A stretch of 64,000 nt of DNA, taken from an uncultured Woeseiaceae bacterium (GTDB lineage: Bacteria > Pseudomonadota > Gammaproteobacteria > Steroidobacterales > Woeseiaceae). A program made the position numbers and the translations under genes. The stretch covers positions 46,217 through 110,216 of the forward strand of contig CAMYJB010000005.1 of assembly GCA_947258565.1 (NCBI GenBank). The letters are read 5' to 3'. The notes beneath the pieces were generated by a model that saw only the letters and a program-made list of their open reading frames with translations, ran no database searches and was not told the DNA's origin. Position 1 is the stretch's first letter, and every line of letters starts with the position of its first letter. Below are positions 91 through 59,301 of this stretch, in pieces.

Positions 91-492
91 CTTGTTCTTG
101 CCGGCCAAGTTGACTCAATCGACGCGATCAACGGTGTGTTTATGGCAGTGGGCCAGACAGTGATGGCGTCTCAGGCCATGCTTGCCAGTATGAGCGTCGG
201 CGACTTTGTATCAGTCAACGGCTCGGTTGTCTCGTCCGGTTGGCTGTACGCTGATTCAATCTCGGTCAACAACGGTATTTATGTACCGGGTTCGACGCAC
301 GTATTCGTAATGGGTATTCCGTCGAAGATCGATCGAGTGCTTGGCCAGGCTCAGCTTGGTGAGCTCACAATTGACTACACAGCCGCCATGAGCGGCGGAG
401 CTATTCCGTCTGGGCTTTCGCTCAGTTTCAGCGGAATACAGCCTGTCAGCCGTGGCTTGCTGGTGTCGGACGCGGTCAGCGCCGTAGAGTAG
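1..492 (+). CDS. Repeat-containing protein, C-terminal part (5' end outside window)
   Basis: The frame is open from base 1 to the TAG at 490-492, giving 163 visible residues. They begin with INGGDVTG octapeptide repeats and continue into a beta-rich, Gly/Val/Ser-rich region. That region has a pattern such as GQVDSID, then a GD-V-VNG block, then an A-SI block, which resembles the small repeated beta modules of the DUF5666 type; this is a pattern match, not an assignment. No transmembrane segment or enzymatic motif is visible in this part. The repeats suggest a surface or exported structural protein, but the signal peptide, if any, lies outside the window. A strong terminator follows at 574-600. 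Function unknown. Confidence 0.75.
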   Translation: MNGGDVTGINGGDVTGINGGDVTGINGGDVLVLAGQVDSIDAINGVFMAVGQTVMASQAMLASMSVGDFVSVNGSVVSSGWLYADSISVNNGIYVPGSTHVFVMGIPSKIDRVLGQAQLGELTIDYTAAMSGGAIPSGLSLSFSGIQPVSRGLLVSDAVSAVE

Positions 493-512
493 CCGATCCC
501 GAAAAGGAGACA

Positions 513-533
513 CCCCGACTTCGCTCGTCGGGG
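513..533 (+). terminator. GC-rich hairpin after the first CDS
   Basis: CCCCGAC (513-519) pairs perfectly with GTCGGGG (527-533) around a 7-nt loop. No T-tract follows. It could be a weak stop or a 3'-end protecting stem upstream of the better terminator at 574-600. Confidence 0.35.
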
Positions 534-573
534 CACAATTACAAAAAGATCTGTCTCTGGGAGTATCAGATGG

Positions 574-600
574 AAGGCCACTTCGGTGGCCTTTTCTTTT
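574..600 (+). terminator. Intrinsic terminator of the first CDS
   Basis: AAGGCCAC (574-581), a TTCG tetraloop and GTGGCCTT (586-593) form an 8-bp perfect stem, followed by TTCTTTT. This is a textbook Rho-independent terminator for plus-strand transcription. Confidence 0.85.
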
Positions 601-604
601 GCGC

Positions 605-632
605 AAAAAAAAGTCGGCGTCCCTGCCGACTT
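605..632 (-). terminator. Intrinsic terminator, minus strand (end of candidate sRNA)
   Basis: Read on the minus strand, AAGTCGGC (632-625), a 6-nt loop and GCCGACTT (618-611) are followed by an uninterrupted T run (612-605). ppiC already has its own minus-strand terminator at 771-793, so this one implies a separate transcript starting between about 632 and 770. Confidence 0.8.
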
Positions 633-703
633 AGTTCTCGTATCAACCTAAAAGGAGATGCGAGGGTTGGAGAAGCCACCCCCGAGCGATTAGGGATGAC
701 TCG
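605..703 (-). ncRNA. Candidate CRP-activated small RNA (~100 nt)
   Basis: The interval lies between two minus-strand terminators and carries no credible ORF. A class II CRP-type promoter (710-752) predicts a 5' end near 703-704, and the terminator at 605-632 gives the 3' end. Read on the minus strand, the predicted RNA has a 5' stem (GGGTGG with CCaACCC, loop CTTCT). Then comes a CTCG/CGAG stem whose loop holds CATCTCCTTTTAG, complementary to a Shine-Dalgarno sequence of the AAAAGGAGA type, and last the terminator stem. C/U-rich loops of this kind are common in trans-acting riboregulators. Seen: terminators, CRP-like site and CU-rich loop. Inferred: transcription and function. Confidence 0.5.
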
Positions 704-709
704 TGAGCA

Positions 710-752
710 ATGTTAGGTAGCTTCCCGAAACGATGATGTGATGCCGCTCACA
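710..752 (-). promoter_or_regulatory. CRP-type operator and -10 box of the candidate sRNA
   Basis: TGTGATGCCGCTCACA (737-752) matches the CRP consensus TGTGA-N6-TCACA in both half-sites. On the minus strand a TAACAT box lies at 715-710, placing a start near 703-704. The operator centre (744.5) is then about 41 bp upstream, the classical class II CRP spacing. The crp gene is not in the window, so the regulator is inferred. Confidence 0.55.
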
Positions 753-770
753 GAACGGTCGCCAAAAAAT

Positions 771-793
771 AAAAAGGGCGCCGTAAGGCGCCC
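771..793 (-). terminator. Intrinsic terminator of ppiC
   Basis: On the minus strand GGGCGCC (793-787), loop TTAC and GGCGCCC (782-776) are followed by TTTTT and, after one A, another T run. It sits about 30 bp past the ppiC stop codon and ends that transcript. Confidence 0.85.
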
Positions 794-822
794 CTTATGA
801 CAAGTTGCGAGGATTAAGTTAA

Positions 823-1626
823 TTAGCCGTCAGACGAACTGGCGTCACGCAATCCCTGCATGTAGTCCTGGAACTTCGTCTGCTCAACACGTTGCTTGAT
901 TGCGTCACGCACGCTTTCCAGAGTTGGCGGCTCGTTCTCGCGAGATTCCTCGCGCAAGATTACGTGCCACCCGAACTGTGTCTGCACAGGGGTGGACGTG
1001 AACGCACCATCGTCAAGAGCAACGACGGCATCAGCAAACGGCTTGACCATCTGATCCGGAGCGAACCAGCCGAGATCGCCACCATTGGGCCCCGATGGTC
1101 CGGTGGAAAACTCTTTGGCCAGGGCCTGGAAGTCTGCACCTTCCTTGAGCTGATTGATAACTGCCTCTGCCTCGCCCTGTGTCTGCACGAGTATGTGACG
1201 TGCCTTGTATTGCAGGTCCGAGGACTGTTCCAGCTGCGCCTCGTATTCCGCGAGAATTTCCGCATCGGTGGCAGGATTGGTCGCTACCCAGTCACGGGCT
1301 ACCGCTTGCGCGATCGTGCCGCGGTACTGAAGCTCGAGCTGTGCTTTGATCTGCGGGTCCTCGGAAAAGTCCGTGGCCTTCGGTTGTGTCGTCAGGAGAT
1401 AGATGTCAGTGATCTCCCGTTCAACGGTCGCACGTTCGTCGGCAGTTGCCTGCGCAGCAGGCTTCTGAAATCGGCTCTCCAGGTATGCGTCAAATACCGT
1501 GCTGTCGATGTCGACGCCGTTGACTGTCGCCACCGTTTCGGCGGCGGCGGTCGAAAATCCGCTCGCTGCAAGTGAGACAACAGCGATAAGTGTTCCAAAC
1601 AGGCTGGAACGTGATTTGAATATCAT
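823..1626 (-). CDS. ppiC: Exported parvulin-type peptidyl-prolyl isomerase
   Basis: A 267-residue protein of the PpiC/SurA parvulin family, which isomerises X-Pro bonds and helps envelope proteins fold. Residues 1-29 form a signal peptide (basic MIFKSRSS start, hydrophobic core, AAA-type cleavage region), so it acts in the periplasm. An N-terminal helical chaperone-like segment (about 30-140) precedes the rotamase domain (about 140-232). That domain shows the family motifs KARHILVQ, the F-ALAKEFSTGPSGPNGGDLGWF block and QFGWHVI. AAAGGA lies just upstream of the ATG. It is last in the conserved yciB-YCII-bolA-ppiC group, about 140 bp after bolA, and ends in its own terminator. The family is certain; the precise clients are unknown. 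Confidence 0.92.
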   Translation of the reverse strand: MIFKSRSSLFGTLIAVVSLAASGFSTAAAETVATVNGVDIDSTVFDAYLESRFQKPAAQATADERATVEREITDIYLLTTQPKATDFSEDPQIKAQLELQYRGTIAQAVARDWVATNPATDAEILAEYEAQLEQSSDLQYKARHILVQTQGEAEAVINQLKEGADFQALAKEFSTGPSGPNGGDLGWFAPDQMVKPFADAVVALDDGAFTSTPVQTQFGWHVILREESRENEPPTLESVRDAIKQRVEQTKFQDYMQGLRDASSSDG

Positions 1627-59064: not shown

Positions 59065-59073
59065 CGTGCACTA

Positions 59074-59183
59074 CTCATCGAGACCGGCTGAGGGAAAGGC
59101 CCTTTGAAGCCGGGGCAACCATCGGGACTAACCATCCTGAAAAGGTGCCAACTCCTGCGGAGGCGATGCCTCCGAGAGATGAG
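59074..59183 (+). promoter_or_regulatory. SAM-I (S-box) riboswitch
   Basis: The aptamer is closed by CTCATC (59074-59079) with GATGAG (59178-59183). Inside are the conserved GCTGAGGGAAAGGCCC, TTTGAAGCCGGGGCAACC, AAAAGGTGCCAA and CTCCTGCGG segments in S-box order. It senses S-adenosylmethionine. The downstream 118 nt contain a GTGTCG/CGACAC pair and an inner CTGTG/CACAG hairpin but no T-tract terminator, so control of metB is more likely translational. Confidence 0.93.
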
Positions 59184-59301
59184 TGTCGGTGCAGCACGCT
59201 GTGGACGTCGCACAGCTGAAGGGCACGACACCCCTCCCTTGCGGGCTTCGCAGGGTTCCGATGAGAAGGTTTGACATTGGAACGTTCAGCGGAGACCGAA
59301 C

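Follow-up and report, generated by a model that had tools for sequence, protein, structure and literature searches.

The window analysed here, the whole stretch of 64,000 nucleotides, carries on its minus strand a bolA-like gene (1765 to 2037) and a gene for a PpiC-type peptidylprolyl isomerase (823 to 1626; NCBIfam matches below cut-offs), followed by a region in which no open reading frame of at least 60 amino acids was found (607 to 822). A terminator scan placed two minus-strand stems there, one at 796 to 773, between ppiC and the promoter described below, and one at 632 to 611, which recovered the gene-free gap between flanking terminators from which the sequence-only reading had started. 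This region holds a CRP operator (TGTGAGCGGCATCACA in the minus-strand reading, TGTGATGCCGCTCACA on the plus strand; 737 to 752, centre at 744.5), a minus-strand -10 element, TAACAT (710 to 715), and a predicted minus-strand small RNA of ∼99 nt (605 to 703), placed by the conserved segment and by covariance model matches, with its start at or adjoining position 703; the conserved body measures 98 nt (702 to 605). ppiC lies directly upstream of the RNA and is co-directional with it. From the other side, a plus-strand gene coding for collagen-like INGGDVTG repeats (1 to 492) converges on the RNA, with ligA (NAD-dependent DNA ligase) beyond it (locus L235); the contigs of many relatives stop near this repeat gene. 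Elsewhere in the window, a SAM riboswitch (S box) was detected at 59072 to 59185 on the plus strand (93.9 bits versus a gathering threshold of 44.4).

Sequence searches with window positions 480 to 1000 matched 25 of 60 genomes, the window's own included, all from the same genus; in one of them (G011) the match was confined to ppiC. DNA conservation peaked over the RNA and its operator, with 85% identity at 606 to 752 versus 78% in the ppiC stretch of the same genome (G021), and 88% identity over 603 to 725 in another (G028). Twenty-three full copies were aligned (alignment A1; 89% mean column identity) and used to build a covariance model, R1. This model matched 52 of the 73 genomes of the genus and, under strict filters, 79 of 396 genomes of the order, distributed over 13 of 72 genera and four families (f1, f5, f9, and f16), so that the candidate of the sequence-only reading recurs across relatives. 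Complete copies, for which the upstream DNA was examined as well, were present at 75 loci in 75 genomes (48 in the genus, 27 outside it); a further four genus copies, truncated at contig ends, were excluded. An exact-pattern search matched 65 contigs, mostly labelled as Woeseiaceae, Gammaproteobacteria, or Proteobacteria MAGs, and the named records among the matches were mostly MAGs. When nine of these 65 were checked with the model, eight matched and one, labelled Rokuibacteriota (L113), did not. A second model, R2, built from five f5 and f16 members, was searched with strict filters in 369 genomes of the class and matched G000 and G094 only, a result that says little on the reach beyond the order, because the filters were strict and f5 and f16 were apparently not drawn.

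No R1 match was obtained in 21 of the 73 genus genomes. Thirteen of these were searched for ppiC, which was kept in three and cut by a contig end in G070; the other nine had distant ppiC homologues only, G002 additionally having a short fragment of 42% at the edge of a contig. The joint absence of the small RNA and of a close ppiC in these nine genomes is compatible with either a gap in the assembly or a lost locus. Two genomes listed as 100% complete (G022 and G027) contain CRP and have neither a close ppiC nor the small RNA.

The window RNA was predicted to fold into three hairpins at -37.1 kcal/mol (z of -3.47; none of 200 shuffles was as stable), RNAalifold found three stems in the 23-copy alignment, and single folds of members outside A1 gave three hairpins in 10 of 10 cases. 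Hairpin 1 (673 to 702, minus strand) has 11 pairs with 98.4% of cells paired, and in A1 it showed compensatory changes, with 4 of the 11 pairs changed on both sides. Cells with compensatory changes numbered 20, compared to a shuffled mean of 6.9 (no count as high in 500 shuffles) and to 0 to 5 in slid controls. The four pairs with both sides changed compared to a shuffled mean of 2.3, and this number was reached in 45 of 500 shuffles; further pair types gave no signal (15 versus 14.7 in shuffles). Covariation within A1 was limited to helix 1; helices 2 and 3 together have 17 pairs, of which 16 are invariant there. Hairpin 2 (637 to 664, minus strand) is built from CUCG/CGAG and AUC/GAU pairings around an AUCUCC core, with 8 of its 9 pairs invariant (23 of 23 A1 rows) and an inner length of 9 to 14 nt in the 63 orthologues measured. 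The terminator stem-loop (611 to 632, minus strand), whose stem shows compensatory changes across families, displays the hexaloop AGGGAC (624 to 619) and runs into the 3'-terminal T run (605 to 612, with 611 and 612 shared with the stem); the longest T run, stem T included, measures 5 to 9 in 74 of 75 copies.

In f5 and f16, the hairpin-2 loop is open and reads GAAUCCCCCAACGA, or has one additional base. The two f9 members folded (L081 and L083) use another stem for hairpin 2, so that different families may pair in different ways. A divergent f1 copy (L085, 1492 to 1585; 46 bits) has rebuilt hairpin 2 and kept the operator. When RNAalifold was run on the mixed-family alignment A3, helix 2 disappeared along with most of helix 1, an outcome that we attribute to misalignment, and this consensus was rejected. 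The linker motif CAACY could also pair with the five bases ending at the G of GAUACGAG, as a pseudoknot or an alternative hairpin: of 64 rows, 46 allow all five pairs, two of them compensated, and 18 do not fit, the GUGUG rows among them.

A partition-function calculation on the window RNA leaves the loop of hairpin 1 and most of the linker unpaired and closes hairpin 2 save for a few bases. The open hairpin-1 loop, AAUCGCUC (684 to 691, minus strand), is conserved in 64 of 75 orthologues and represents a first candidate seed. A second is the single-stranded linker CUCCAACC (665 to 672, minus strand), a Shine-Dalgarno-like complement whose CUCCAAC occurs in 68 of the 75 RNAs; AUCUCC in hairpin 2 occurs in 60. 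The sequence-only reading had placed a Shine-Dalgarno-complementary seed in a loop, CAUCUCCUUUUAG. Only the first half of that loop is conserved, the greater part of the loop is paired in the predicted fold of the window RNA, and the exact UCUCCUUUU is found in 7 of 75 RNAs. The proposal is supported in part, by CUCC in the linker and AUCUCC in hairpin 2: a Shine-Dalgarno-like complement rich in C, within hairpin 2 or close to it, is a theme of the family, with the precise seed of the earlier proposal present in few species. A perfect complement of UCUCCUUUU, AAAAGGAGA, occurs at 502 to 510 on the plus strand, just past the stop of the collagen-like gene and with no ATG close behind.

Targets were searched for in 12 genomes with two 9-base complements, of the linker and of hairpin 2, placed before an ATG. 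The patterns gave 20 and 39 matches, compared to 7 and 18 for the reversed patterns, an excess for which GGAG preceding ATG may by itself account. Reading of the frames after the ATG in 50 loci (20 plus 30; 9 of the 39 matches were without a locus) revealed only two pairs of similar frames, L213/L215 and L219/L231, each in two genomes. Both pairs were rejected as targets, lying within longer open frames of another reading, and the search for linker and hairpin-2 complements before ATG in the 12 genomes thus yielded no convincing mRNA target.

The CsrA motif is ANGGA in a hairpin loop, and the terminator loop follows the pattern ANGGAN in 72 of 75 copies by script and in two more by eye (L086 and L089, where a G-U pair broke the stem rule of the script). 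The exception (L079, 1522 to 1618, in G064) is missing the terminator, its body running into a neighbouring GGCCAC-CGAA-GTGGCC hairpin, by deletion or by an assembly fault. Since the N positions vary (G, A, U, or C at the first; C, U, or A at the second) and the stem compensates between families, the loop seems to be held for its letters. Among the eight strict terminators of the window, that of the small RNA alone has such a loop. This loop has the shape of a CsrA site and may bind CsrA, which is encoded in the window's genome; alternatively, its conservation could be explained by a contact between its GGA and the UCC in hairpin 2. One might go further and suppose that the RNA acts mainly on a protein, the ANGGAN loop binding CsrA and CRP using the RNA to titrate or redirect CsrA, with base pairing secondary. 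Conservation of the loop in 74 of 75 copies despite varying N positions and a changing stem, its occurrence in one of the eight window terminators and the presence of CsrA all speak for such a role, and passages in PMC4098024 describe McaS of E. coli as binding CsrA through two exposed GGA motifs while also base-pairing. We nevertheless regard it as unlikely. The RNA has a single conserved GGA loop, not the several GGA motifs of the CsrB type, compared to 9 to 25 GGA motifs in the Csr sponge RNAs named in PMC11882849. A main role on CsrA would leave unexplained the high conservation of the hairpin-1 loop in 64 and of the linker in 68 of 75 copies, and the L079 copy retains the RNA body without the GGA loop.

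A base-pairing RNA from a gene of its own, the reading we prefer, would need its own promoter, and the upstream DNA points to one. Both half-sites of the window operator match the CRP consensus, as first noticed from the sequence alone, at 10 of 10 bases. Over the 74 loci with sufficient upstream DNA (L078 was too short), the best match to TGTGA-N6-TCACA had 10 of 10 bases in 67 and 9 of 10 in 7; thus, operator (nine or more of the 10 bases at every one of the 74 loci) and terminator (ANGGAN loop in 74 of 75) are both conserved in relatives, as was expected of a genuine gene. With the start at 703, a position deduced from the -10 element and the CRP spacing, the operator centre falls at -41.5 by hand count, and the 29-nt gap from centre to -10 element was confirmed by script. 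The class II spacing originally proposed for TAACAT (715 to 710) is hence no peculiarity of the window, given that 71 of the 74 loci have their best -10 element 29 nt away from the operator centre. Two of the other three have TAATAT at the 29-nt place beside a better-scoring overlapping hexamer, and in the third the distance is 28 nt. Conservation amounted to 0.99 in the half-sites. In the surrounding positions it was lower, at 0.53 for the 6-nt spacer, 0.59 on the upstream side, and 0.44 in the stretch separating operator and -10 element. As the loci share descent, they are not 74 independent events, and it is this contrast between half-sites and neighbouring positions that carries the argument. 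Because R1 was built without any upstream DNA, the operator constitutes separate evidence for a small RNA gene.

No common -35 hexamer was found among the aligned upstream regions, and a sigma-70 consensus scan of positions 400 to 2400 found no promoter, which fits an activator-dependent promoter devoid of a -35 box. The arrangement shares with class II CRP-dependent promoters, of which galP1 is the type example, a site at -41.5 and a -10 element without a conserved -35 element, and differs in that the promoter predicted here drives a small RNA.

By tblastn, bolA was located upstream of the small RNA in 74 of 75 loci, the contig being cut in the remaining one, and a ppiC homologue was found in 69. 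The convergent collagen-like gene was detected in 45 of the 48 genus loci and in 56 of 75 overall. In the five f9 loci no ppiC homologue was found by tblastn and the small RNA is kept beside bolA; of the four window proteins tested, BolA is the one encoded closest to it. These neighbourhoods bear on the idea that the segment is merely the 3' end of ppiC, serving as a second terminator or giving rise to a 3'-UTR-derived RNA cut from read-through transcripts. The position directly downstream of a co-directional ppiC invites this idea, which we nonetheless consider very improbable: the segment is preceded by a CRP site of its own at each of the 74 loci with enough upstream DNA, the best -10 element lies at 29 nt in 71 of them, a terminator intervenes in the window, and the five f9 loci retain the RNA by bolA where ppiC was not found. 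That the CRP site belongs to some other gene, with the RNA a bystander, is barely conceivable, common as CRP sites are in CRP-bearing genomes: in 71 of the 74 loci the -10 element with class II spacing is directed at the RNA, a plus-strand start would run antisense into ppiC, and the plus-strand neighbour ends at 492. A short translated open reading frame or a dual-function RNA can be practically dismissed as well, for a GTG frame exists but the 98-nt window RNA contains no ATG, and many of the differences among hairpin-2 inner lengths (9 to 14 nt) are not multiples of 3 and would shift the frame, which argues against a coding role.

A CRP-activated small RNA gene calls for CRP, and the genome of the window encodes a homologue, whose existence the sequence-only reading had presupposed, with 319.8 bits compared to a curated NCBIfam equivalog cut-off of 266; E. 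coli CRP and Vfr are among its best PDB matches. Hfq is encoded in the same genome. Across the genus, 70 of 73 genomes have a CRP match at E≤0.001 and 64 exceed the cut-off, with a weak match only in G008, which is 64% complete. No match at E≤0.001 was found in three of the 73 genomes (G004, G011, and G081; 1.4 to 1.5 Mb), and in these the small RNA and the collagen-like gene are gone, bolA and ppiC are kept, and ligA adjoins ppiC (L026, L165, and L166). The joint loss agrees weakly with control by CRP, as the collagen-like gene was lost too and the three genomes perhaps represent a single lineage.

Rfam 15 families at gathering thresholds were absent from the segment in a scan of the whole window and from 12 orthologous loci. 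At E≤10, all matches to the window segment and to that of L088 were below gathering, and CyaR was not among them. Literature searches on small RNAs in Woeseia and the Woeseiaceae listed no paper with these words in its title or abstract. The small RNA thus represents a new family of a known kind, apparently undescribed. Its closest counterpart is CyaR (RyeE) of Enterobacteria, which we take to be Rfam family RF00112, and which is of similar length and has a different seed sequence. Another partial counterpart, McaS of E. coli, is activated by CRP. CyaR is portrayed in sections of PMC11795201 and PMC4098024 as a cAMP-CRP-activated, Hfq-dependent RNA with a conserved seed that binds the Shine-Dalgarno region of ompX. 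The link to CRP, Hfq dependence, a conserved seed, and Shine-Dalgarno pairing are predicted for the Woeseiaceae RNA as well; it differs in having no Rfam CyaR match, in belonging to another bacterial order, and in its bolA and ppiC neighbours. McaS, in the parts of PMC4098024 and PMC10729762 that treat it, is a base-pairing small RNA binding CsrA through GGA motifs, of which it has four, two being demonstrated CsrA sites (PMC10729762). Base pairing and a GGA-type CsrA site are both predicted here, with one conserved GGA loop, situated in the terminator, in contrast to the four of McaS, and with no Rfam match. Spot 42, an Hfq-associated small RNA under CRP control according to a portion of PMC4098024, shares CRP control and, by prediction, Hfq; it is repressed by CRP, in contrast to the activation predicted here, and again no Rfam match was obtained.

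Taken together, the locus very probably contains a free-standing gene for a trans-acting small RNA, belonging to a new CRP-activated, base-pairing, and probably Hfq-dependent family that is CyaR-like but not CyaR. The genomes themselves show a conserved RNA with its structure, a conserved CRP site held at a fixed distance, and genes for CRP, Hfq, and CsrA; from these we infer transcription, binding of CRP, Hfq, and CsrA, pairing with mRNAs, and target identity. On a poor carbon source, cAMP would rise and CRP would bind at -41.5, activating transcription from 703 in class II fashion, for which a -35 box would not be needed. The terminator at 611 to 632 would end transcription, yielding the ∼99-nt RNA. 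The case for Hfq dependence consists of the presence of hfq and the U tail, and Hfq would most likely bind via the terminator together with this tail. The hairpin-1 loop, the CUCCAACC linker, and perhaps AUCUCC of hairpin 2 would then pair with several mRNAs in their 5' regions, with CUCC opposite the Shine-Dalgarno sequences, so that translation would be blocked; by analogy with CyaR, the RNA would be a trans-acting repressor of translation that reports the carbon state. The ANGGAN loop of the terminator may bind CsrA as well. A bolder version, in which three global systems meet in one RNA of ∼99 nt, with CRP switching it on, Hfq and two open seeds, the hairpin-1 loop and the linker, acting on mRNAs, and the terminator loop serving as a conserved CsrA site, is possible but tentative.

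The Woeseiaceae are widespread but little-studied bacteria of marine sediments, and this RNA, linked at a fixed locus to the starvation regulator CRP, offers a handle on their carbon control. Marine Woeseiaceae and some of their relatives may tune gene expression to nutrient state with it, in much the way that E. coli does with CyaR. The findings further suggest that CyaR-like wiring, in which CRP drives an anti-Shine-Dalgarno RNA, may have a separate origin outside Enterobacteria. The locus also provides a clear example of an intrinsic terminator with a putative CsrA site inside it, and if the RNA does join all three systems, termination and CsrA control would share one hairpin.
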